From assembly GCA_018660835.1 (NCBI GenBank), contig JABJJN010000008.1, forward strand, positions 234,977 through 298,976: 64,000 nucleotides of DNA, in the 5' to 3' direction. Shown piece after piece: positions 39,887 through 60,962 of this stretch. This stretch comes from Gemmatimonadota bacterium. Lineage in GTDB: Bacteria; Latescibacterota; UBA2968; UBA8231. Both the position numbers and the translations under genes were made by a program. The notes below the pieces were generated by a model. It was not told the DNA's origin. It ran no database searches and was given only the letters and a program-made list of their open reading frames with translations. Within the stretch, counting starts at the first letter, position 1, and each line of letters opens with the position of its first letter.

Positions 39887-41584
39887 CTAAGAACCGAGGT
39901 TCAGCGTCAATGCCAGGCGCAGGTCCAGTCCATTGTATTTGCGACGCCCACCGATCGGCTTTGAGAAGGCGCTCATCCAGTTGTATCCCGAACGTGCACC
40001 GATCGACAAGAAACGGGCGACAGACACATCGATTCCCCCGCCAAGACGCACTCCGAAGGCTCCTTGTTCGCGCTGCCAAAGGGTGTCATCGAGCAGACTC
40101 CGCCCACGCTCCTGCCCTGTAACGGTTGCCAGAGACGCACTCAGGAAGGGTATCCAGCCTGAGGTGCGCAGCAACCAGCGTCCGCCGAATTGCCAGCCCG
40201 TCAGGCGTATCTCCCGCAGACGCGACAGACCATCCGCCGCGAGTGCATCCGTCTGCAGATCGCTGGCGAGGGTAGAGTAGGATAGTGTTGCCTCGAAGCG
40301 AGGATGCATCTGGTAGGCAAGTGTGAGCCCGCCGAGTGTCTCCCATGGCTGTATCTGTCGAATCGGTTCAGGTAGAGCCGGTAGCGCGCTGTCCTCCGCG
40401 GTCTGATCGCCACCCGTTCGGATCGCATCCGATTCGAGGACGCTGGCACTCGGCTCAGGCCCAATACGCCCGAGGTGCAACTCGACCCGCAGAGGCATCC
40501 CGGTCTCTGGTCGGGCCGCGCGTCGTGGGGCACCAGGAATTCCACCACGCAGAACAGCTTCTTCCATCGGCGTATCGCGGAAGTCGCTTGCGAGCACGAC
40601 GACTCGTTCACCCGCCTCGACACGTCGCGTCGCCTTCTGCAATCCGTCCCCGCGCCGCAGATAGATTTCGTAGTTATGTGGTTCCAAACCCAGCTCGATG
40701 CGTCGGCCTGCTGTCTTGCTCAGTTCCGCAACCAACAGTCGATCCCCATTACGGATGTAAAGTCGACCATCCACCTGCTCGCCGATGTCGAGACCCGCCG
40801 TAAACTGACGCACATCCGTCATCACCACGTCACCGGTGCCAGACAGATTCATGTCGTAGGCCGGATGCTGCGCCCCGCCGCGAAGATCGACGGTTCGAGC
40901 CAGGGTCTCGCGGAAAGCAAACTGATAGGCTTCACTGAGAGTCACTTGACCATCATCTGACACGTCAGCGGCGCCACGCATCCCTGATACCAGATAGTGG
41001 GTAAAAAAGGAGCCACCGATACGATCGGACTCCTGTGCAGACTCCTCAGCAGAACTGGACGTCAGAAATGCGTAGCCGCGGGTGTCAGTGGACGAATCGA
41101 GCAGAAAGGCAGCGCGCCGCTGCCCACCCTTGAGCCGGGTGATGGCACCCGATGCGCAAGCGTCGAGAATGGCAATGCGTACATCGGCGCCTATTTCGTC
41201 GAGTTCTGCCCGCAGTTCGCGATAGGTCAGGCGCTCGCCTGCAAGAAGCAACCCGGTCTCATCAGCATGCCCTGAATAATACAGCAGCACCTCACTGCGG
41301 ACCGTCGGTGGCACTTGCTCGAGTCGCTTCGCCAGTTCGTGCAGGGCGTCGACAAAGTCGGCGCGATCTGGTTCGGAAAGCAGCACCCGGTTCTCCGCGT
41401 CGACACCCCCCATCTGCGCCATCACTGCTGCGAAGTTGCCCGCATCAGACACGGCATAGCGCAAGCGAACCCGATCCGTCCCACCATCATTGGCGCCTGC
41501 AGCAAGGACGAAGCGTTGTGTCGTAGGCGAAGCGAATGCTGCCGACGACAGGATCATGAGCGCGAGAACGAGGCGCGTAATCAT
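39887..41584 (-). CDS. exported caspase-like (C14) protein with C-terminal beta-barrel-like domain
   Basis: A 565-residue protein starting with a signal peptide (MITRLVLALMILSSAAFA). The caspase-fold catalytic dyad is visible as His in LYYSGHADE and Cys in ILDACASG, separated by ~45 residues. Residues ~185-245 include SFFTHYLVSGMRG and a DVSDDGQVTLSEAY segment that looks like an EF-hand-type calcium site. The last ~150 residues alternate as transmembrane beta strands (GLTLAYQMHPRFEATLSYS, ending LDLRLALTLNLGS), typical of outer-membrane barrels. The ATG overlaps the stop of the anti-sigma gene (ATGA). It is the third gene of a sigma/anti-sigma operon. Confidence 0.8.
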   Translation of the reverse strand: MITRLVLALMILSSAAFASPTTQRFVLAAGANDGGTDRVRLRYAVSDAGNFAAVMAQMGGVDAENRVLLSEPDRADFVDALHELAKRLEQVPPTVRSEVLLYYSGHADETGLLLAGERLTYRELRAELDEIGADVRIAILDACASGAITRLKGGQRRAAFLLDSSTDTRGYAFLTSSSAEESAQESDRIGGSFFTHYLVSGMRGAADVSDDGQVTLSEAYQFAFRETLARTVDLRGGAQHPAYDMNLSGTGDVVMTDVRQFTAGLDIGEQVDGRLYIRNGDRLLVAELSKTAGRRIELGLEPHNYEIYLRRGDGLQKATRRVEAGERVVVLASDFRDTPMEEAVLRGGIPGAPRRAARPETGMPLRVELHLGRIGPEPSASVLESDAIRTGGDQTAEDSALPALPEPIRQIQPWETLGGLTLAYQMHPRFEATLSYSTLASDLQTDALAADGLSRLREIRLTGWQFGGRWLLRTSGWIPFLSASLATVTGQERGRSLLDDTLWQREQGAFGVRLGGGIDVSVARFLSIGARSGYNWMSAFSKPIGGRRKYNGLDLRLALTLNLGS

Positions 41585-42465
41585 TGCTCTCCACCCTCTT
41601 TCAACAGAATCCATTGATTCTGCAGCAAAGCATCCGACAGGGGAAGTGCCGTGGGTGGCATGATACCGATATCCATCGACTGTATTCTGGCCAGGACGGG
41701 TCGGATATCGAAAGAGACGTCACCCGTGATGAGATAGAAACATTCCCACCGCGGCGCAGCGTCCAGTTCGTAGGCGTGTTCGAGGGCGACGACACCACCA
41801 CGTAGAACACCTGCTTGTATTCCCTCGAGCGGGTAGTGGCGAGTGAGGACACCCGAACCATCAACAGAGACGATCAAGCCGTATCTTGCCCCCGCCGCAT
41901 CGTATTGGATCATCACGAGATCTCCCTCGGCGGCGCTAGCACCCTTCTCCAACAGAGTGCTCCGTGCTGCAGCCTGGCCTGCCGCCGTTTCCGACATGTT
42001 TCTGTTTGTGCCAGCAATACGATGCAGAAGCAGGCGAGGGCCATCGCCTTTTATGCGCACCTGCTCGCGCAGCTGTGGCGCTGGCACCGAGCGGGTCTGA
42101 CCCGGTGCAATGCTGGTCGCAAGCGGCGAGACGGTAGACGGGTCAGGGGACTGCAAGATCGGCAGTGCCGCTAGCGTCAGGACAATGGCCACCGCCGGCG
42201 ACCAACGCCACCATAGAGACCACTCCCCCTTCTTGTGAGCCTGTGGTTGTGACGCAGCAGCACGAGTTTCAATCTGGCGCGCCATCCATGCTGCGGGATA
42301 ACGTTCAAACACCAACTCGTCTTCGCGTGCCAGGGCATCGAGCCGGGCACGCAGTTGCTCGTCCTGCGACAGCAACGCCTCGATCTGCTGCAATTCGCTC
42401 TGCGGCAGTTGCTTGAGCAGATAGCGCTCGAGTCGCCAGTCGGCAATAGGCGCAGATAGTCTCAT
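41581..42465 (-). CDS. membrane-anchored anti-sigma factor-like protein
   Basis: A 294-residue protein. The N-terminal 75 residues are helical and charged (WRLERYLLKQLPQSELQQIEALL), as in sigma-binding domains, without a zinc HCC motif. One TM helix is at ~89-106, then a periplasmic part ending in a beta-rich domain (DLVMIQYDAAG, YGLIVSVDGSG). The gene overlaps the sigma gene upstream and the caspase gene downstream by ATGA junctions, so all three are coupled. Anti-sigma function rests on position and architecture. Confidence 0.75.
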   Translation of the reverse strand: MRLSAPIADWRLERYLLKQLPQSELQQIEALLSQDEQLRARLDALAREDELVFERYPAAWMARQIETRAAASQPQAHKKGEWSLWWRWSPAVAIVLTLAALPILQSPDPSTVSPLATSIAPGQTRSVPAPQLREQVRIKGDGPRLLLHRIAGTNRNMSETAAGQAAARSTLLEKGASAAEGDLVMIQYDAAGARYGLIVSVDGSGVLTRHYPLEGIQAGVLRGGVVALEHAYELDAAPRWECFYLITGDVSFDIRPVLARIQSMDIGIMPPTALPLSDALLQNQWILLKEGGEQ

Positions 42466-51612: not shown

Positions 51613-52554
51613 TTAGTGGTATGACAGGATCGGTTCGATCGCTGCCTGAACCTCGGCTGAGATCGCTTGTGGGACACGGGGATTGAAGGGGCCACCGACG
51701 CCACCCTCCACATCATCCCATCCGCCCAGATGAAGTGCCTCGACAACAGCAGAATAGTTGTACTGACGACCATTGCGGAAACGAATCTCCTCAAGGGGTG
51801 CAACAAGATCCTCAATCTTCTGAGACGCCTCGTAGTCGCCGCGGCGCTGGGCATTGTTGATCGCGTCTGACGCTTTGGCAAAACCGATATTGATGCCCGA
51901 CGTGTGCCCCTTGGCGCCGGCAACGGCGGGCGCTGTGCTGCGATCACCGACACCCCAGATAACCACGCCTGCCTCTGCAGGCACTTGCTCAACAATGGGT
52001 TTCACATCGTCAGGCACGGTCCCCACTTTGATGCCTACAAATTGGGCCGACTCGTTGAGCAACCGCACCGCCGTCTGCGTCTCACGATCCTGACGCAGAT
52101 AGTAGAGAAAACGGGCACCTGAGGAGGCCAATCGTTCGCCCAAGGCCATATAGCCATGATAAATGCCTTCGGGATCAGCGACCCCCGTCAGGGGCATGAG
52201 CAGAAACGCATCGGGTGGGTGAGTGAGCCGGGACTGGCTTTCGATCAGACGTTCTGCCTCGGCGAGTGGATTCGGAGCGATGCCTGCGATAAAAATGCCG
52301 CGGCCGGCGATTCGCTGGGTCGTGAATTCCATGAGCCGCAGCTGTTCGTCTGCGGCGAGATGGTGAATGAGGCTCGTACCTGCAACACACAAGACCCGCT
52401 GCCGCCCCCCATCCAGATCGTTGTTGGCCAGCAGATAGTCGATGTTTCTTCCATGACCATCATAGTCAATGGCACCTGCATCGTTGAACGGAATCGGCGG
52501 AATGGAAATGACCGTATCGAGGGCTTCAAACAGCTCTTCATTGCTCAACGGCAT
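51613..52554 (-). CDS. dihydrodipicolinate synthase-family aldolase/lyase (second copy)
   Basis: A 313-residue TIM barrel of the DHDPS/NAL superfamily: ISIPPIPFNDAGAIDYDGHGRNI at the start, AGTSLIHHL in place of the usual GTTGE, a Tyr in RFLYYLRQD and the Schiff-base Lys in FVGIKVGTVP. It lacks the N-terminal BMC module seen in the other aldolase of this locus and is separated from the FAD gene by 117 bp, so it may act outside the compartment on a related 2-oxo acid. Confidence 0.8.
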   Translation of the reverse strand: MPLSNEELFEALDTVISIPPIPFNDAGAIDYDGHGRNIDYLLANNDLDGGRQRVLCVAGTSLIHHLAADEQLRLMEFTTQRIAGRGIFIAGIAPNPLAEAERLIESQSRLTHPPDAFLLMPLTGVADPEGIYHGYMALGERLASSGARFLYYLRQDRETQTAVRLLNESAQFVGIKVGTVPDDVKPIVEQVPAEAGVVIWGVGDRSTAPAVAGAKGHTSGINIGFAKASDAINNAQRRGDYEASQKIEDLVAPLEEIRFRNGRQYNYSAVVEALHLGGWDDVEGGVGGPFNPRVPQAISAEVQAAIEPILSYH

Positions 52555-52671
52555 GACAGATCGTTACTCCGATGGGGGTAGGTTTGTGGCACAACCAATG
52601 CTCCAGCATACGGGTGATCGACGCTGGCTGTCAAACCGTTCAAACCTTCTTCGATCTATGGGTTTCAGCCC

Positions 52672-53862
52672 TCAGCGCTCGATGGCAAAAGGAGTCATGT
52701 CGACCCCTGGATCCCCTTCCGTGATCCAGGCTGTCAGCGCTTGCCCCGTCGCCGGTGCCATGAGGACACCATTCTTGTAGTGACCACTGGCGACATAGTA
52801 TCCGGGCGGCTGCAGGGGCGCGATCAGGGCGCGGCCCCGACGGGGCTTTGGCCGCAGACCAGCATTGTGCTGCACGACATTGCAGGAATGGCCAAGGACC
52901 CTCTCAGCGACCTCCAGCAGTTCCTGCCGGCCCTGCTCGGTGGGTTGAACTGGATCAGACAGATCATAGGCGGTGGCTGGGTCATTGGTGGCACCGACGA
53001 AAAGGTCCCCTGTGCTGGTTGGCAGAAGATGGTAGCCTTCCCAGTGGACGATGCCCTGTAGATGAACCGATGCCTGCAACTGCAGACTCTGTCCGGCCGC
53101 GGACCTCACGGCGCGGGGCGCGAGTCCGAGATTGACTCCCAGGGCTGAAGTTGCCGCCCCGGCGGCGAGGACAACCGTATCGGCCGTGAGTTTCTCCCCC
53201 GTTTCAAGCACTATGGCAGGTGGATCTGTCCCATCGAGATGAGCCACGTGTCCAGGATGGTGTCGGGCGCCGTGGCGCAAAGCGCCCAACCAGAGAGCCT
53301 TTGCCAGTTGCTGCGGATCCACTCGATGGTCTTGAGGCCACAGGCAGGCGGCGATCATTCCGAGTGCCAGCGCCGGCTCCCGTTCGGCGGCAGCGATCGG
53401 TGACAGCCATTGGCAGCGGGCACCGCGCTCCTGCAGACGGGAAACATGCGCTCGAAGCCGTAGGGCCTCTTGTTCGTTGTAGGCGACCTCAAGTCCGCCG
53501 CAGGCGGTCCAACCAATATCTACACCCGTCTCCTCAGCCAATTGACGAGCAAGAGGGTCATATAGTTCGTGGCTGAGTCGGTAGAAGGCGGACAGACTGT
53601 CCAGCCCTGCTGTGGGACGCGTGAGGACGCCAAGGCTGGCGCGGGTCGGAGCGGACTGGATGCGGGCGGGATCTTCCTCGCACACAAGCACAACGTGTAT
53701 GCCAGCTCGCGACAGATAGTACGCGACACTGCGACCGATCAGGCCACCACCAACGATGAGACAGGAGTGGACGATGGCCAGCTCTAGGGCCGTTGGGCCA
53801 AGTAGGAGGTTCGCGTCAGCTGCGGTGGACCAGAGGTGGCAGATGCGTGACCGGACAACCAC
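52672..53862 (-). CDS. FAD-dependent amine oxidoreductase (DAO/ThiO-like)
   Basis: A 396-residue protein with the Rossmann FAD motif LIVGGGLIGRSVAYYLSRAG, a central VVLAAGAATSALG strand and the C-terminal ASGHYKNGVLMAPATGQ typical of glycine oxidase ThiO and D-amino-acid oxidases. It would oxidise a small amine or amino acid to an imine/oxo acid. The listed GTG overlaps the aldolase gene by 47 bp; a start closer to the Rossmann strand (non-ATG, near 53781) is likely. Its place after the aldolase suggests it makes or consumes a 2-oxo acid, which is inference. Confidence 0.78.
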   Translation of the reverse strand: MVVRSRICHLWSTAADANLLLGPTALELAIVHSCLIVGGGLIGRSVAYYLSRAGIHVVLVCEEDPARIQSAPTRASLGVLTRPTAGLDSLSAFYRLSHELYDPLARQLAEETGVDIGWTACGGLEVAYNEQEALRLRAHVSRLQERGARCQWLSPIAAAEREPALALGMIAACLWPQDHRVDPQQLAKALWLGALRHGARHHPGHVAHLDGTDPPAIVLETGEKLTADTVVLAAGAATSALGVNLGLAPRAVRSAAGQSLQLQASVHLQGIVHWEGYHLLPTSTGDLFVGATNDPATAYDLSDPVQPTEQGRQELLEVAERVLGHSCNVVQHNAGLRPKPRRGRALIAPLQPPGYYVASGHYKNGVLMAPATGQALTAWITEGDPGVDMTPFAIER

Positions 53863-55039
53863 GAGCCCCTGTGACTGAAAATCCCATGTCGCTCAGGACA
53901 CAACTGATCTCCATCTCCAGCTGCTGCAGATAGTCACGCTCATCTGAACTCATGACAGTGCGCGCGGGACCGACATCAAAGCCACGGACACGGACACCTG
54001 TCTTGAACCCCTCTGGGAAGTTCACGCCGAGCAACATGAGATTGATCAGCGGCAGAATCCGATACTGCAATTCACGCGCTCGATCCAGATCATTGGCCAG
54101 CGTCCGCTCGTAGAGTTCGACGATGATCTCCGGAATGATACCCGACGTTGCGATGGTTCCACCATTGGCGCCCATGATGATAGACGGCAGCAGAATCTCC
54201 TCACAGCCATTGAGCACGACGTAGTCAGGTCGATGCTTGCGCAGACGCTGCATCGTGTTGATGATGCGCGGCAGGTCACGACTCGAGTCTTTTGTCCCAA
54301 AAATGCGATCAAAAGCGAGCAGATCCTCCATTACATCCAGGGGCAGTTCCTGAGTAAACTGCGGGATGTTATAGAGCAGGATATCCAGAGGGGAGTTTCG
54401 CGCAATCTCAGCGAAGTACTCGTAGAGACTGGTATCTGAGATCTTGTAGTAGTAGGGTGGTACAAGAGAGATCGCATCCGCGCCGATGTCAGCGTAATAG
54501 TCGGCCATCTGCAACACATCGCGCACATTGGCTTCGCTGGCACCGGCGAGAATCGGCACGCGCCCACCGTTGACATCCGCAATGAGCCGCACCACATCGC
54601 GCCGTTCCTCGCCGGAGAGTCGGACGAATTCTCCCGTGCTGCCGTTGGGGTAGAGGCCGTGAATTCCGGCGTCGATGAGCCAGCCGATGTAACGCTCCAT
54701 CTCTTTGTAATTGATATTTCCCGCCTCATCGTAGATGACGATGTTCGGCGTGAAAATACCACTGAAGCGTCGACTGCGTTCGGTCCCTCCCGGCGCCTCA
54801 GGCACCCCTGCCGGTTGCGAACCAGAAGCCTGAGTTGTTGGCTGATGGGCGGTCTGGGCATGGGTGTGCGAGGCAGAAGTCGCAGACCTCTTGACCACCT
54901 GGATCTGCCGGGCGCGTAACAGGTCGAGAGCAGAAGGAGTCAATTTCGCCCTGGGACAGACCTCAACCTGGCGTTCGTCACCGGTCAATCGACTCTCCAG
55001 TGTCTGCGCCGTGATCAGGCTGTCATCAATTCTTACCAT
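53816..55039 (-). CDS. DHDPS-type aldolase with BMC-associated N-terminal module, likely signature enzyme
   Basis: A 407-residue protein. Residues ~6-50 form a module ending KLTPSALDLLRARQIQVV, similar to EutT/EutQ N-termini and to the Cys-rich protein four genes upstream. A low-complexity Ser/Thr/Gln linker (~52-90) leads to a complete DHDPS/NAL barrel: GLYPNGSTGEF, Tyr in LLYNIPQFT, Schiff-base Lys in FGTKDSSRD and GANGGTIATSG. Such enzymes split 2-oxo-3-deoxy acids into pyruvate and an aldehyde, which would feed the aldehyde dehydrogenase encoded nearby. ATG follows AGGAG by ten bases. Cargo status is inferred from the added module and the operon. Confidence 0.85.
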   Translation of the reverse strand: MVRIDDSLITAQTLESRLTGDERQVEVCPRAKLTPSALDLLRARQIQVVKRSATSASHTHAQTAHQPTTQASGSQPAGVPEAPGGTERSRRFSGIFTPNIVIYDEAGNINYKEMERYIGWLIDAGIHGLYPNGSTGEFVRLSGEERRDVVRLIADVNGGRVPILAGASEANVRDVLQMADYYADIGADAISLVPPYYYKISDTSLYEYFAEIARNSPLDILLYNIPQFTQELPLDVMEDLLAFDRIFGTKDSSRDLPRIINTMQRLRKHRPDYVVLNGCEEILLPSIIMGANGGTIATSGIIPEIIVELYERTLANDLDRARELQYRILPLINLMLLGVNFPEGFKTGVRVRGFDVGPARTVMSSDERDYLQQLEMEISCVLSDMGFSVTGARGCPVTHLPPLVHRS

Positions 55040-55084
55040 CAAGCTTCAGCTCCTGATGCGTCGCGAAGTCCCCCAGGCACTGGC

Positions 55085-56248
55085 CTAGGCATGAGACAAG
55101 CGATCGGTCAATTCGGCGTAGGGAAGGGCGATGACGTGGCGAGCGAGAAGTTCGCCATGACGCTGTGCGGCTCGTGCCCCTACATCGAGGGCATTGTCCA
55201 CGGCGCCAAGTTCACCACGTATGACGACGGCCGTGAGGAAGTAACCCACTTTGTAGCGCCCCTCGTAGGAGACCTCGGAACTCTTCAACATGGCATCCAC
55301 GGCGCTCACGAGGCCCACGGTTGTGCGAGTCTCCAACAATCCCAGAGCCTGATCTGGTCGCGCCGCATGCGCCGCAGGCGGGGCAACTTCGGCGAAGGCC
55401 GCCACCAGTTGCGGATCGGGGTTGGTGATCAGCGCCTCGCCATTGTTCTGTGCAATGGGCTGCATCGCCTCTGCCGCCTTCGACACGGCGGCCTTCACAT
55501 TGTCGAGAGCGCCCGTCGCGACCGTCGCCACTCGACCGCCACTACCGATTGTCAGCCGAACGATGTCGACAGCCGCTTCTTTGACCATCTGATCGGCGGC
55601 GTGAATGGCGCCGATGTATCCCGTCGTTTCCACCAGCCCGAGAGCTCCGAGGGACTGCTGCTGGCCCGCGGGGGTTGGTGGGAGCAAATGCAGTACATCC
55701 GCTTCGGGCTGTTCAATGACCAGATGACTGAATAGTTCGCCGTGAGAAGAAGCGGCTTCTGCTCCGGCAGCGATGGCTGCCTCGACATCTGCGACACTAC
55801 CCTTCACGGCGGCATGAACCAATGCGCCACCGATAAAGGTCCAGCCCAGCAAGATCACATCCGCTGCCTTGAGCATCCGGTCAACACCGACGATCAGTGG
55901 CACCACACCCTTGGTTTCGAGCCAGCCAATCGCCTCACCTGCAGATAACTCTACGTCGTCGAGGGCTGTCTGCGTGTGCGGCATGGATGCGAGGGTCGCA
56001 TCCTCAGGACGTGGCAGGATGAGGGACGTGATGATCTCACCGTGACGCTGGGCGGCGACATCTGCTGCTGCCATCGCCGTCTGCACATCAGCCGTCGTCC
56101 CGTCGATGATGATGGTCAGCCAGCCAGAGCCGATGCCATGGCGACCAGACAGACGAACACTGGCCGCCTTGCCCATCGCATCGAGGGCGGCAGCAAGGGT
56201 GGTCATCCCTCGACACTCAAAGACGCCAACGGACCCAGTCACAGCCAT
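55085..56248 (-). CDS. shell protein with four tandem BMC domains
   Basis: A 387-residue single frame made of four consecutive BMC (PF00936-type) domains: residues ~6-89, ~106-190, ~202-288 and ~301-385, each starting [VA][IL]G[VWL][FL]E and ending near a HGE plus LP/QP motif. Standard shell proteins have one (BMC-H) or two (BMC-T) domains; four would allow one chain to build two-thirds of a pseudohexamer or two stacked trimers' subunits. The four copies are diverged from each other, so this is not a recent duplication. Start overlaps the stop of the upstream BMC-T gene by one base. It is complete, with no internal stop. Confidence 0.88.
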   Translation of the reverse strand: MAVTGSVGVFECRGMTTLAAALDAMGKAASVRLSGRHGIGSGWLTIIIDGTTADVQTAMAAADVAAQRHGEIITSLILPRPEDATLASMPHTQTALDDVELSAGEAIGWLETKGVVPLIVGVDRMLKAADVILLGWTFIGGALVHAAVKGSVADVEAAIAAGAEAASSHGELFSHLVIEQPEADVLHLLPPTPAGQQQSLGALGLVETTGYIGAIHAADQMVKEAAVDIVRLTIGSGGRVATVATGALDNVKAAVSKAAEAMQPIAQNNGEALITNPDPQLVAAFAEVAPPAAHAARPDQALGLLETRTTVGLVSAVDAMLKSSEVSYEGRYKVGYFLTAVVIRGELGAVDNALDVGARAAQRHGELLARHVIALPYAELTDRLSHA

Positions 56249-56829
56249 CAGTTCCCACCTGCCTTACGAAACTGCCCGAAGGCACCCACAACACATGCCT
56301 CTGGCTGCGATAACACAGCGCTCCCCATGAACCACTCGTTGCCGGACAGTGCCTGGCGCGCACCTTCGATGGCTCGCTCTACCGCACCCAATTCACCCTT
56401 CACGAGGGAGCAAACGACGCGATCTTGCACAGTGAGAACATTGACCAGTTCAACGTCCGCCTCTTTGACCATACGATCGTTGTTCTCTACGTGCAGACCG
56501 TAGCCCCGTATTTCGATCAACCCCAATGCTTCTGCTGTGGCTGACGTGTCGTCCGGGTCAACCGGCACACCGATGAAGTCATCGATGACCGCTTCGGGCT
56601 GCAGCAAACTATTGTGAGCGACATGGCCGGAAACCGTGGCCGCCGCCGCCGTGCCAGCAAGCAGCGACGACTCGATATCACTCACCTCGCCACGCACGAA
56701 GAGTGTCGTAAAGCCACCAATCGATTCCCACCCAGCCAGTTTCACAGCGGCTGCCTTGCAGGCTGCATCTGCGGCGACAATGATTCCTGCCACCCCCTCC
56801 ACTTCGATCATACCAATCGCCTGCGTCAT
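56248..56829 (-). CDS. BMC-T shell protein, divergent
   Basis: A 193-residue two-domain shell protein: domain 1 ~3-88 (AIGMIEVEGVAGIIVAAD), domain 2 ~100-185 (ALGLIEIRGYGLHVENND). It differs markedly from the two near-identical BMC-T proteins of this locus. A Cys in QPEACVVGAFG near the end is in a position where some BMC-T proteins carry metal centres; this is only suggestive. It lies seven bases after the Cys-rich gene and overlaps the four-domain gene. Confidence 0.85.
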   Translation of the reverse strand: MTQAIGMIEVEGVAGIIVAADAACKAAAVKLAGWESIGGFTTLFVRGEVSDIESSLLAGTAAAATVSGHVAHNSLLQPEAVIDDFIGVPVDPDDTSATAEALGLIEIRGYGLHVENNDRMVKEADVELVNVLTVQDRVVCSLVKGELGAVERAIEGARQALSGNEWFMGSAVLSQPEACVVGAFGQFRKAGGN

Positions 56830-56836
56830 CTTCTGC

Positions 56837-57352
56837 CTACTGTTCCAGTCGTGACATGATCTCGTCCGTCAACCGCTGCACGAGGAACTCCAGCTCCTCG
56901 TCGTCCCCTGCGCATTGCTCACAGCTGCAGGCGGATCCACCATTCTTGCCATTGCGAGCGCATTCATCGCAACAAGCGGGCTCAACGTACCCTGAGCCAA
57001 ATTCTTCCGTTTGGCAGCCAAAGGCGCGGTCAGGGTGATCGCATCGACCGTGGTATAGAAGCCCACTCTCCGACCCGGGTGGTAGAATCTCCTGAATCGG
57101 CGTCCCCGTCGTGGGCGAAGACGTCGCTGCGCCCGGTGATGAGCTACGCGCTGCCGACCCAATCGTCGATGATCCGGACGCGCCTTGAATAAGGACGACG
57201 CCGTGCATCCGCAGATAATCCCTCGCCGAGGGCGTCACAATGGCCTTGGCATGCAGATGAACCTCACCCTCCTGCTGATGTCGCTGCGCCAGCAACGATT
57301 CAGTGATCAGCATCTCGTCGAGTTGTAGAGTGTGAGCCATCTTGAGAATCAT
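56837..57352 (-). CDS. Cys-rich BMC-associated protein with EutT/EutQ-like N-terminal module
   Basis: A 171-residue protein. Residues ~13-56 (MLITESLL, AIVTPSARDYLRMHGVVLI) match the module on the operon's aldolase. A Ser/Gly/Pro-rich linker (~58-90) follows, then eight Cys (104, 113, 127, 128, 131, 142, 144, 147) in CxxxxxxxxC, CCxxC and CxCxxC spacing, fit for Fe-S or zinc binding. The C-terminal ELEFLVQRLTDEIMSRLE is an amphipathic helix like BMC encapsulation peptides. I do not recognise the whole protein; a redox or assembly role in the lumen is inference. Starts at 57352 or 57340 are both possible. Confidence 0.65.
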   Translation of the reverse strand: MILKMAHTLQLDEMLITESLLAQRHQQEGEVHLHAKAIVTPSARDYLRMHGVVLIQGASGSSTIGSAARSSSPGAATSSPTTGTPIQEILPPGSESGLLYHGRCDHPDRAFGCQTEEFGSGYVEPACCDECARNGKNGGSACSCEQCAGDDEELEFLVQRLTDEIMSRLEQ

Positions 57353-57361
57353 CGGTCGAGC

Positions 57362-57628
57362 CTACAGCCCGACGCGCTCCTTGAGCGTGGAAATGGGGCG
57401 CGGAATCACATGCACTGAACGCAGGTCTCCGACCCTTTGCGCCGCCTCAGCCCCGGCGTCGACGGCAGCCTTCACCGCCGCAACATCACCCTCGACAAGC
57501 ACATTGACCATACCACTTCCCACCCGCTTCTGACCCGCGTAGGTGACATCCGCGGTCTTCAGCATCGCATCAAGTGCTTCCACTGCTGCGATGAGACCAC
57601 GCGTTTCTATCATTCCCAAAGCTGCCAT
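57362..57628 (-). CDS. BMC-H hexameric shell protein
   Basis: An 88-residue single BMC domain ([56 protein letters not shown]), the main facet-forming tile. It differs from the second BMC-H of the operon at only about six positions. It lies 20 bases after the BMC-T gene. Confidence 0.95.
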
Positions 57629-57648
57629 CAGATCTCTCTTTCTACGCC

Positions 57649-58206
57649 CTATCCCAGAAACAGCCGAATAGCGGCTGCTGCAGGACGGGGAATGACATGG
57701 CGGGACACGACGACACCGACTCTCTCTGCCGCCTCTGCGCCGGCTGCGACAGCAGACTGCACGGAACCGACATCTCCCGTAACGAGCACGGTGATGTACC
57801 CACCACCGATTTCCTGCGAGCGCACAACCTCGACCTCGGCAGCTTTCTCCATTGCATCTGCCGCTTCGATTGCCGCTGTTGCGCCGCGCGTCTCGACCAT
57901 GCCTACCGCTGTGACATCTCCTACAGCGGCATCGCTCGCTTTGGGCACGATCGATGCGAGACCTGCGTGTGGCCGTGCGATCACGTGGGTGCCATTCACT
58001 TCAACGATTCTTGCAGCAGATGTCGCCCCGGCGTCCACGGCGGCGGTCACCGCCGCAACATCCCCCTCACAAAAAATCGTCACCAGGCCGGACCCCACTT
58101 TGTCCCACCCCAGCAACTCTACATTCGCCGCCTTCGCCATTGCGTCGGCACTGACGATCACTCCCGTCAATCCCGTCGTCTCGACCATTCCCACAGCTTG
58201 AGCCAT
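57649..58206 (-). CDS. BMC-T shell protein
   Basis: A 185-residue protein with two BMC domains (~1-88, [20 protein letters not shown]; ~99-185, [20 protein letters not shown]). It forms pseudohexameric trimers. It is a close paralogue of the other 185-residue BMC-T in the operon, sharing most residues, and both are followed by a BMC-H gene. Confidence 0.95.
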
Positions 58207-58222
58207 TTTACGTTCCGTCCTA

Positions 58223-58927
58223 TCAGCGCTTGGTCAATGTGACGTTGCGTGCATTTACGAGATCCACGGCGTTGCCTTCATCCGTGTCGAGATGGACTTC
58301 CAATTTTGATTCCGGTGAGATGCGTACGGAAACATCATCGAACACACCGCCCTGCTCCCCGTCGACGACGAGGCGCATCCGGTCACCTTCCACCACACCA
58401 TATTCAACAGCGTCGTCCGGACTCATGTGCACGTGGCGCGCGGCACGAATCACACCTTCGGCGATCGCCAACCCACCATGTGGCCCAACGAGAAAACACC
58501 CCGGCGTCCCTTTCGTGTTTCCGGAGACGCGGACGGGGGCATCGATGCCAAGAAATCTGGAATCACTAAAGGCCAATTCAATCTGTGATGCATCACGCAG
58601 GGGCCCAAGAATTCGCAGGTTAGAGATCATCTGCTTGCGGGGTCCGAAAATCGTCACCGTTTGCTCGGAGGCGAAGGCACCGCTCTGATAGAGTGGCTTC
58701 ATGACGGTCAGTTCCGCCTGCGGACCGAAGAGGATTCGCAGCGTGTCTTGATCCAGATGACAGTGTCGCGCGGAGATATTTGCAATCAGTCGAGGCGAGC
58801 CACTCTGCCCTTCGTTGCGGTGCCTGTGGCCGGGTTCGTGATCTTTATGTCCGGCGCCGGGTTGATGGCGCCGGAGGGAATCGCGGACCATCTGCTCTAC
58901 AGTCGCCCGAGAAATCATGGCCGTCAT
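58223..58927 (-). CDS. pduL: phosphate acyltransferase PduL, BMC type
   Basis: A 234-residue enzyme that converts acyl-CoA to acyl phosphate and recycles CoA inside the compartment. Metal-binding His motifs SARHCHLD, ARHVHMSP and LEVHLDTDEGNA are intact. The N-terminal ISRATVEQMVRDSLRRH is an amphipathic helix typical of encapsulation peptides, followed by a His-rich linker (~22-45). ATG overlaps the EutN-type gene's stop (ATGA). Confidence 0.93.
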   Translation of the reverse strand: MTAMISRATVEQMVRDSLRRHQPGAGHKDHEPGHRHRNEGQSGSPRLIANISARHCHLDQDTLRILFGPQAELTVMKPLYQSGAFASEQTVTIFGPRKQMISNLRILGPLRDASQIELAFSDSRFLGIDAPVRVSGNTKGTPGCFLVGPHGGLAIAEGVIRAARHVHMSPDDAVEYGVVEGDRMRLVVDGEQGGVFDDVSVRISPESKLEVHLDTDEGNAVDLVNARNVTLTKR

Positions 58928-59238
58928 GCCGCATCGTTGACGGCATTCAGGTCTAGCGACTGACCATCCGTCGTAAGTGCATCGAGAATCCCAACGACCA
59001 CCGCATCCGTCGGCACACTTCCCATCTCGGGGGCACTGCGAGCAGAGCTGCCCATCACGGTGATCACAACCTCTCCCGTTCCCGCGCCCACGGCGTCAAC
59101 GCAGACCATCTGACGGCCTGTGCGCTGCAGCCCCTCCGGGCGAACGGTGAGTACTTCAACCAGCAACAGTTTGCGTCCCACCAGCGTATCGAGCTTGGCA
59201 GTGGAGACGATGTTCCCTTTGACCTCGGCAAGTAACAT
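58924..59238 (-). CDS. EutN/CcmL-type pentameric shell protein
   Basis: A 104-residue BMC-P vertex protein: LAEVKGNIVSTAKLDTLVGRKLLLVE, VCVDAVGAGTGEVVITVMGSSAR and TDAVVVGILD are all typical. Pentamers cap the polyhedral shell. It is coupled to pduL and lies seven bases after the aldehyde dehydrogenase gene. Confidence 0.93.
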   Translation of the reverse strand: MLLAEVKGNIVSTAKLDTLVGRKLLLVEVLTVRPEGLQRTGRQMVCVDAVGAGTGEVVITVMGSSARSAPEMGSVPTDAVVVGILDALTTDGQSLDLNAVNDAA

Positions 59239-59245
59239 GGCGGCT

Positions 59246-60673
59246 TCAGGTAATCCGAAAGTAGTCGATAAGAGCGCAACGACGACGACGGGTAAAGGTG
59301 CGTGCCGTGGTCATTCCTTCACCTGTAGGTCCGGCGATCGAAAAGGTCGCGTAGCCCTCACCACCGACACCTAATCCGGCGAAAGAGGGGCCATTTTTCA
59401 CAAAAACCGTTGTATCCACAGCGCGTGCCATATTGTGCATGTTTTCGATATTGCGCGAGTGGATTATCGCTGTGTGCCGATAACCGTGTTCCGATTCGAT
59501 GGCTGCACGGATTCCTTCCTCCACATTGCGTACCCGAATGATGGGGAGGAAAGGCATCATTTGCTCGACTTCGACGAAGGCATGCTTCGCGTCGGTCTCG
59601 CCGATCAACAGGCGCAATTGGTCGTCCAACTTGAGACCGATGGACGCCGCCAGGACGTTGGCATTGCGGCCGACGAAATCGCGATTCACATGAGGCTTGC
59701 CGTCGTCTCCAAGGGGCAAGGCAACCTTCGTCAATGCCTCGATCTGACGACGATCTAGTTCGACAGCACTATAGGCAAGCATTTCACGTTTGAGTTCATC
59801 GGCGACAGAATCGACGACAAAACACTGCTTCTCGCCAATACACAGGACATTGTTGTCGAAGGCGGCACCATCGATGATGTCGCGCGCCGCTTTGCGGATG
59901 TCAGCCGTCTCATCCACCAGAACCGGCGGGTTCCCCGGCCCTGCGGCGATCGCCTTCTTACCACTGCGCATTGCCGCCTTCGCAACGGCGGCCCCCCCGG
60001 TAACCAGCACGAGACGCACGAGACGATGATGAAACAACTCGTCTGCGGACTCGATGGTGGGCTCGCCGATGGACGCGACAAGGTTGGCGGGTCCACCAGC
60101 GCGCACAATCGCCTCATTGAGCAACTGTACCGCATGTGCAGACACCACCTTGGCACCCGGATGCGGGTTCACCACGACAGCATTCCCTGCGGCGATAATA
60201 CCAATCGCATTGTTGACGAGGGTCGGTACCGGATGCGTCGACGGCGTGACGGCACAGATCACACCATAGGGTGCCATCTCCTCGACGGTGAGGCCATGAT
60301 CGCCCGTCCACGACACCGACGTCAGGTCCTCGACACCGGGCGTGAGGTCCGCTGCCAGTGCGTGTTTCTTCAGTTTGTCTTCGAGGCGACCGATACCGGT
60401 CTCTTCGAGGGTCATGCGCGAGAATGAGTCGGCGTGATCGCGGGTGACCTGACGAATTGCCTCGATGACCTGCCTGCGCTCTTCGAGACTCTTTGTCAGC
60501 AGCTCTTTTTGGGCCCGGTCAGCGGCGGTGACTGCCTCATCGACTGTGGCAAAGACGCCACCCCCAGATCGTCGCGGGCTTGCGGTGGCTCTACCTGCCG
60601 GAGCCGACTGCACGACGCGCTGCACGACCTCCTCGACAATCTGCCGAACGCGATCTTCGTTGACGTTGTTCAC
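59246..60673 (-). CDS. CoA-acylating aldehyde dehydrogenase, BMC type (PduP/EutE-like)
   Basis: A 475-residue enzyme oxidising an aldehyde to acyl-CoA with NAD+. The N-terminal helix EDRVRQIVEEVVQRVV plus a Ser/Ala/Arg linker (to ~42) is a standard encapsulation peptide. Nucleotide-binding AVTPSTHPVPTLVNNAIG and GAGNPP-like GPGNPPVLVDE segments are present, and the catalytic Cys is in FDNNVLCIGEKQC. With PduL it forms the metabolosome core. It lies 22 bases after BMC-H. Confidence 0.95.
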   Translation of the reverse strand: MNNVNEDRVRQIVEEVVQRVVQSAPAGRATASPRRSGGGVFATVDEAVTAADRAQKELLTKSLEERRQVIEAIRQVTRDHADSFSRMTLEETGIGRLEDKLKKHALAADLTPGVEDLTSVSWTGDHGLTVEEMAPYGVICAVTPSTHPVPTLVNNAIGIIAAGNAVVVNPHPGAKVVSAHAVQLLNEAIVRAGGPANLVASIGEPTIESADELFHHRLVRLVLVTGGAAVAKAAMRSGKKAIAAGPGNPPVLVDETADIRKAARDIIDGAAFDNNVLCIGEKQCFVVDSVADELKREMLAYSAVELDRRQIEALTKVALPLGDDGKPHVNRDFVGRNANVLAASIGLKLDDQLRLLIGETDAKHAFVEVEQMMPFLPIIRVRNVEEGIRAAIESEHGYRHTAIIHSRNIENMHNMARAVDTTVFVKNGPSFAGLGVGGEGYATFSIAGPTGEGMTTARTFTRRRRCALIDYFRIT

Positions 60674-60695
60674 TTGTGGTTAGTTCAGCACCGAC

Positions 60696-60962
60696 CTACA
60701 GGCCCGTGCGCTCCTTCAAGGTGGCGATAGGGCGAGGGATCACATGGACGGAGCGCAGATCGCCAACGCGTTGCGCCGCTTCGGCGCCTGCATCGACTGC
60801 AGCCTTCACGGCGGCCACATCTCCTTCAATGAGCACATTCACCATGCCACTGCCAACTCGCTTCTGCCCCGCGTAGGAGACATCCGCCGTCTTCAACATC
60901 GCATCGAGTGCCTCTACGGCGCCGATCAGGCCGCGTGTCTCGATCATTCCCAGTGCTGCCAT
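60696..60962 (-). CDS. BMC-H hexameric shell protein
   Basis: An 88-residue single BMC domain nearly identical to the BMC-H at 57362 (differences such as IGAVEAL for IAAVEAL, YAG preceded by Ser for Thr). The nucleotide sequences have diverged more at third positions, so both copies are under selection. Confidence 0.95.

Follow-up and report, generated by a model that had tools for sequence, protein, structure and literature searches.

A predicted alpha/beta module shared by an aldolase and a Cys-rich protein of a bacterial microcompartment operon, with relatives in EutQ, EutT and PduM

Introduction

How cargo is attached to the shell is an open question for most metabolosomes, and EutQ and PduM have so far been studied as separate cases. 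The question is raised by a metabolosome operon on the minus strand of a 64,000-nucleotide stretch (hereafter the window) from contig JABJJN010000008.1 of a Gemmatimonadota bacterium, whose draft genome (GCA_018660835.1) measures 7.1 Mb. Two otherwise different proteins of this operon, a DHDPS-family aldolase and a Cys-rich protein, were proposed in an earlier note, made by a model from the sequence alone, to begin with one module of about 45 residues that also opens EutT and EutQ and that might serve as a docking or assembly signal within the bacterial microcompartment (BMC). Do the two proteins share one module, which other proteins carry it, and what might it do?

One module on two proteins

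The two N-termini are homologous. Comparison of ortholog alignments (12 Cys-rich N-termini against 12 aldolase N-termini) with hhalign gave a probability of 99.0 and P 2e-18. The motif [IV/L]TPSAxDxLRxxx[IV]x[VL][VI] occurs as originally written in both proteins, as KLTPSALDLLRARQIQVV in the aldolase and IVTPSARDYLRMHGVVLI in the Cys-rich protein, and a low-complexity linker follows the module in each. When the Cys-rich protein of the window alone was searched with phmmer against 100 genomes, aldolase N-termini (in frames of about 390–423 aa) were matched in many related genomes at E 1e-6 to 9e-4. Within the window's own genome the pair is weak (E 0.059, 32% identity), so that relatives are required to see the shared module. 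A recent duplication within the operon was considered and dropped because the window's Cys-rich module has similar identity to planctomycete modules (32–43%, six rows) and to aldolase modules (34–38%, five rows).

Structure prediction with AlphaFold2 (AF2), using separately made alignments of 21 Cys-rich and 18 aldolase sequences, was searched for unrelated folds and revealed none. Both modules show the same order of strands (E) and helices (H), namely E8-11 H18-24 E30-33 H41-49 E53-56 in the Cys-rich protein (predicted local distance difference test, pLDDT, 70–95 over the block and about 90–95 for residues 11–50) and E2-4 H11-17 E24-27 H35-43 E47-50 in the aldolase (block pLDDT 72–90), the second series being the first shifted by about six residues. 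The module is thus predicted as a strand-helix-strand-helix-strand unit (pLDDT about 90) centred on [IVL]TP[ST]A.DYLR, with two short helices between strands and the TP at the start of the second helix. Confidence in the whole models was low (65.3 and 57.7; the aldolase barrel was poor, with only 18 near sequences used), and we therefore rely only on their modules. Residues 53–100 of the aldolase fall under pLDDT 50.

Foldseek returned no match to the module at E ≤ 0.001, and in the VIA structure comparison the best Z, 5.6 for the Cas1 N-terminal domain, lies below the meaningful level, so we claim no fold kinship; RPB5 and the TRiC apical domain stood further down that list, and the absence of the acyltransferase E3/E1-binding domain (PSBD) among the rows shown proves nothing. 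Among solved structures we found none for EutT and none convincing for the module. No Pfam model covers the module in the 22 carriers among 30 proteins scanned, which gave weak part matches only, to PDU_like and E3_binding.

The module also differs from the usual amphipathic helix, as the earlier note had expected. Like an encapsulation peptide (EP), it is a terminal, linker-attached, BMC-specific cargo element, but an EP is a single amphipathic helix of about 18 residues, whereas the module is a predicted folded alpha/beta unit and is often joined to a separate EP-like helix on the same chain. The hydrophobic moment of its helices does not exceed that of shuffles, and it is not the single amphipathic helix of an EP.

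Relation to EutQ, EutT, TIGR02536 and PduM

The likeness to EutT and EutQ is borne out by profile comparison with controls. Against single sequences from E. coli K-12, hhalign gave P 1.3e-5 for EutT and 0.0018 for EutQ with the Cys-rich profile, and 9.5e-5 and 0.019 with the aldolase profile. Of 18,950 NCBIfam models, only TIGR02536 (E 0.0013, profile positions 162–202 of 207), EutT (0.031) and EutQ (0.15) matched the Cys-rich protein at E ≤ 1. In a controlled test, a 20-row profile free of Eut and Pdu rows was compared with 45 proteins from E. coli and Listeria eut, Salmonella pdu and locus L188. The first six places went to Listeria TIGR02536 (P 7e-11), E. coli EutT (7e-8), the EutQ of L188 (1.3e-6), Listeria EutT (4e-6), E. 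coli EutQ (2.5e-5) and Salmonella PduM (0.0012), followed by PduP (0.0082) as the best non-carrier. Listeria EutQ is short and belongs to a group in which the first helices are reportedly missing; as expected, it did not match (0.037). Three PduM sequences from annotated pdu operons (Salmonella, E. coli, Listeria) matched a PduM-free module profile over residues 120–161 (hhalign probability 94.9, P 4e-8). When each of nine carrier classes was left out in turn, left-out members of every class outranked the first of 6191 open reading frames (ORFs) that we do not count as a carrier; one TIGR02536-like protein was among the weakest (E 0.018), and two untagged ORFs of the unannotated locus L054 were taken as EutT and TIGR02536-like from their place and match.

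These proteins combine the module with different partners. EutQ shares it by profile, has a linker and then a helical region that binds EPs, and has a published shell association; it continues into a cupin domain (PF06249), whereas a cupin is missing from the Cys-rich protein, which has a Cys/His region instead, and the aldolase continues into a DHDPS domain. EutT shares the N-terminal module but continues into a cobalamin adenosyltransferase domain (PF01923) found in neither window protein. TIGR02536, the ethanolamine utilization protein of Gram-positive eut operons and the best NCBIfam match of the Cys-rich protein, consists of an EP-like helix plus the module, in reversed order and around another middle. 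In PduM the C-terminal 42 residues match the module and an N-terminal signal sequence precedes it, giving EP plus module as in TIGR02536; relative to the Cys-rich protein the order is reversed, the module lies at the other end and the middle differs. Other shell-cargo linkers were compared in PMC12487888, namely PduB(1–37), CcmN and the CsoS2 linkers; CcmN and CsoS2 are likened by description only, and PduB had no hhalign match to the module profile (0.41).

We found no described function in the literature for the EutT N-terminus or for TIGR02536. E. coli EutT was not found in 198 genomes of one phylum, nor the PduM family in 47 genomes, while the EutQ family was present in 4 of 50. A module on EutA, whose NCBIfam model is matched by EutQ, was rejected, as E. 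coli and Listeria EutA gave no match. A borderline module match was seen in an 88-residue unannotated protein of a Cetobacterium eut operon (L053:14233-14499); this ORF and one of 89 aa in L054 scored E 0.0017–0.09 in the leave-one-out test, and we leave their carrier status undecided.

Architecture of the two window proteins

In the Cys-rich protein a flexible linker joins the N-terminal module to a C-terminal EP-like helix, predicted by AF2 at residues 151–170 (block pLDDT 81–94) and similar to planctomycete EP helices (hhalign P 5e-7; control 0.17). Between them lies a Cys/His region in which C113, C128, C131, C144, C147 and H106 are invariant among 21 orthologs and C104 nearly so. The protein, including this region with its EEFGSG core, has no Pfam match; the conserved residues suggest a possible metal or iron-sulphur site.

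The aldolase has the PF00701 domain and conserved Lys of the pyruvate-dependent class I aldolases (DHDPS/NAL). Lys250 and Asp251 are invariant in 18 orthologs, and we take Lys250 to be the Schiff-base Lys of this class. The closest solved chain is 4uxd, a KDG/KDPG aldolase, with DHDPS also among the nearest solved relatives; the enzyme therefore probably cleaves a 2-keto-3-deoxy acid, yielding pyruvate and an aldehyde, and the aldehyde would then be processed by the acylating aldehyde dehydrogenase and PduL of the operon. No EP was found on the aldolase.

Distribution of the module

The module is restricted to genomes that have BMCs. We searched 386 genomes with a 29-row module profile, taking a PF00936 match as the sign of a BMC. 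At E ≤ 1e-3 the module was detected in 82 of the 137 genomes with shell genes and in none of the 249 without (Fisher p 3e-47); outside the window's own phylum the counts were 37/80 and 0/242. Relaxing the threshold to E ≤ 0.01 brought the total to 90 genomes, including three BMC-negative ones with TrpG-, RuvB- and ThiL-like proteins (L189, L192 and L198, named by eye), which we count as chance matches.

A pattern scan with the full Cys-rich alignment over 84,980 species genomes matched 78 stretches; 47 of them were confirmed and make up 44 loci. Twenty of these loci have the same operon type as the window, and the other 24, all fetched, also encode relatives of the acylating dehydrogenase and of shell proteins (E ≤ 1e-5). 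For a survey of carriers we set the family's own operons aside and examined the remaining 73 fetched stretches together with L045. The top carrier was RpiB in 29 of these 74, PduL in 11, a DHDPS-family protein in 4, EutT in 2, EutQ in 1 and another protein in 27 (three of these being chance matches). By our own shell profiles a shell gene was present in 41 of the 74; many RpiB carriers had none in the stretch, though shell genes lie elsewhere in the genome.

The carriers vary in architecture. The module stands behind an EP-like helix on a planctomycete protein of about 235 residues, at the C-terminus of a small Comamonas protein, on minimal EP-plus-module proteins of 80–93 residues (L148, L173), and on class II aldolases with a C-terminal EP-like tail (fuculose-type; PF00596 for L086) from two Verrucomicrobia-type metagenome-assembled genomes (MAGs). 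In these class II aldolases (L086:2403-3452, L099:4204-5268) the N-terminal module is accompanied by a C-terminal ECELC...C tail with an EP-like end, and by eye this tail resembles the CC..C region seen in the Cys-rich protein. RpiB, a sugar-phosphate isomerase of SPU-type BMCs, is found with the module fused at either end, and an EP-like helix often precedes the fusion (L136-L147, L132, L155, L172 and others). PduL phosphotransacylase carries the module at its C-terminus in L154:9026-10033 and ten other stretches. Tandem module pairs occur on small proteins at L159:3341-3826 (minus strand; G468) and L160:4594-5085 (minus strand; G328), the former starting with an EP-like helix.

RpiB, class II aldolases ending in EPs and numerous proteins without known function are mentioned in the 2021 BMC catalogue; EutQ, EutT, DHDPS and pfam00701 are absent from its main text. 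A 2024 study of how EPs bind between shell tiles mentions neither EutQ nor PduM, a 2025 EP paper mentions none of EutQ, PduM, EutT and RpiB, and according to a 2025 report no sequence homology of PduM is known outside Pdu microcompartments (PMC12108088). We found no paper linking the module carriers, in a search outside which most subscription journals and supplements lay, so that absence is not proven.

A possible role in docking at the shell

We favour the reading that the module is a folded, BMC-specific domain, homologous to H1/H2 of EutQ, that attaches its carrier to the shell's luminal face, and put the probability of this at roughly two in three. In the light of published work on EutQ we read it as a shell-side element. 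Salmonella EutQ(1–99) targets sfGFP to the Eut BMC; EutQ lacking residues 9–41 (H1/H2) stays with cargo, away from the shell, while EutQ lacking residues 62–99 (H3/H4) stays with the shell, and H1/H2 are reported to act at the EutM/EutL interface (PMC12487888). EutQ residues 1–100 also appear to be required for EutM pulldown or contact (PMC4827028). Because carriers occur only in bacteria with BMCs, the module probably serves generally to fasten cargo to the shell. The earlier proposal of a docking or assembly signal thus gains backing from the EutQ deletions and from BMC-only occurrence; its scope was drawn too narrowly, for while the four proteins it named do share the module, carriers are many more and the module is not always N-terminal. 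For the aldolase and the Cys-rich protein themselves we infer docking, a partner shell protein and a bridging role by analogy with EutQ.

On this analogy, each module would dock its carrier on the luminal shell face, where H1/H2 of EutQ are reported at the EutM/EutL interface. The combination of module, flexible linker and EP-like helix suggests that the Cys-rich protein is probably, like EutQ, a bridge between shell and enzyme core. The aldolase, having the module and no detected EP, would sit directly under the shell by the module alone, where its aldehyde may be released close to PduL and the acylating dehydrogenase.

Several observations weigh against this reading. The module is not universal, since 55 of the 137 BMC genomes show none at E ≤ 1e-3, and a separate phylum sample gave 0/80, in a set that had no positive control. 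The weakest left-out members, E. coli EutQ (E 0.014) and Listeria PduM (0.016), are marginal, and two of the three PduM score poorly with the hidden Markov model. The AF2 support comes from single chains only, and the C-terminal helix of the Cys-rich protein is not significantly amphipathic (869/5000 column shuffles). In Salmonella lacking PduB(1–37), moreover, PduM stays with the core and is not significantly associated with the shell (PMC9132943), which is evidence against a strong module in PduM that binds the shell on its own, and the PduB-PduM link is itself disputed by a later paper (PMC12108088). PduM without its signal sequence leaves dim puncta and disturbs assembly more than does the absence of PduM (PMC12108088); this would fit a body with a contact of its own.

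That PduM stays with the core when PduB(1–37) is absent would suit a domain that gathers the enzyme core by binding EPs or other cargo, with indirect shell contact, as would the many carriers that are enzymes (RpiB, PduL, aldolases) and the existence of tandem copies. We nevertheless consider this unlikely, as the nuclear magnetic resonance data show the peptide EutC(1–20) perturbing EutQ residues 63–99 and not H1/H2, H3/H4 being the part that binds the EutC peptide (PMC12487888), the EutQ deletions separate shell and cargo binding in the opposite sense, and carriers often have an EP-like helix of their own too. An enzyme-to-enzyme docking domain like the PSBD, or a small-molecule regulatory domain, appears improbable. 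Pfam E3_binding does weakly match the second half of the module (L159 at E 0.0028, L090 at E 0.28), but the best relative reaches 18.3 bits against a gathering cut-off of 23.7 with 18 of 36 profile positions aligned (PF02817), neither window protein matches PF02817, and AF2 shows strands as well as two helices in the window modules. That the likeness of these short N-termini is convergent or due to chance, a recurring TPSA turn and helix without shared function, is already disfavoured and seems to us very improbable. In its favour are the shortness of the module, the borderline scores of E. coli EutQ and PduM on their own, and the TrpG-, RuvB- and ThiL-like matches (E 0.002–0.009), which show that a TPSG-helix core can arise by chance, but the BMC-negative genomes are empty at E ≤ 1e-3, the order of elements is the same in both proteins, and the 45 eut and pdu proteins ranked as expected.

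Beyond docking as such, we tentatively propose that one docking domain is common to metabolosome assembly across the EUT1, EUT2, PDU, SPU and PVM types and the type described here, an idea that we find plausible without quite leaning towards it. Under this proposal most metabolosomes would hold at least one chain joining the module on the shell side to an EP helix on the core side, and EutQ, PduM, TIGR02536, the planctomycete protein, the RpiB fusions, the minimal EP-plus-module proteins and the Cys-rich protein would all be variants of a single adaptor. TIGR02536 would replace the segment that Gram-positive EutQ lacks, while the PduL fusions, the two unrelated aldolase folds and EutT would be held at the shell by the module, with or without an EP. 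A single module uniting EutQ, PduM, TIGR02536, EutT, RpiB and two aldolase folds would let many BMC types be explained by one mechanism open to testing. Its sequence could also serve as a tag that picks out adaptors and cargo where loci are uncharacterised, and engineers would gain a second means of targeting in addition to the EP.

The operon and its neighbours

The operon encodes, in order, IspH (named by eye), several EutN-type BMC-P proteins, BMC-T, BMC-H, an acylating aldehyde dehydrogenase (NCBIfam PRK15398, 666 bits), BMC-P, PduL, BMC-T, BMC-H, the Cys-rich protein, BMC-T, a four-BMC-domain protein, the DHDPS-family aldolase, a ThiO-like FAD oxidase and a second DHDPS-family protein (Table 1). 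Gene order around both module genes is kept in about 20 relatives; relatives of the genome bear labels such as Latescibacterota, Handelsmanbacteria and "Gemmatimonadetes" MAGs. Matches to the Cys-rich protein in genomes G038 and G040 are unconfirmed; no Cys-rich-like frame occurs there among frames below 200 aa.

Table 1 Features of the module-bearing operon, in window positions
Feature	Positions	Strand	Basis or remark
FAD oxidase (ThiO-like) and second DHDPS-family protein, downstream, kept with operon	51613..53862	-	NCBIfam, synteny
Aldolase ORF	53816-55042	-	Listed start TTG; conserved ATG at 55039
DHDPS/NAL-superfamily aldolase domain (PF00701)	53906..54766	-	Pfam, 198.9 bits
Low-complexity linker of aldolase	54770..54886	-	Variable among orthologs
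Module at aldolase N-terminus, residues 1-51 from ATG at 55039	54887..55039	-	12-ortholog alignment, hhalign, AF2
Shell protein with four tandem BMC domains, same operon	55085..56248	-	Pfam PF00936, 4 stretches, 227 bits
BMC-T shell protein, between the two module genes	56248..56829	-	Pfam PF00936, 2 stretches
Cys-rich protein ORF	56837-57352	-	ORF listing
C-terminal EP-like helix of Cys-rich protein, residues 151-171	56840..56902	-	AF2, hhalign
Conserved Cys/His region of Cys-rich protein, residues 102-147	56912..57049	-	GRCDHPD..GC..EEFGSG.V.P..C..C ... C..C
Module at Cys-rich protein N-terminus, residues 8-58	57179..57331	-	Ortholog alignment, hhalign, AF2
Operon core: BMC-H, BMC-T, PduL (PTAC), EutN-type BMC-P, acylating aldehyde dehydrogenase, BMC-H	57362..60962	-	Pfam

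A literature search that included the phrase "four BMC domains" found no paper with that phrase. The four-BMC-domain shell protein is kept across the family, mostly as frames of 379–419 aa, and occurs in five genomes of a second family. Elsewhere in the window, the start of a 575-residue protein (39887-41614, minus strand) may resemble a caspase-type peptidase.

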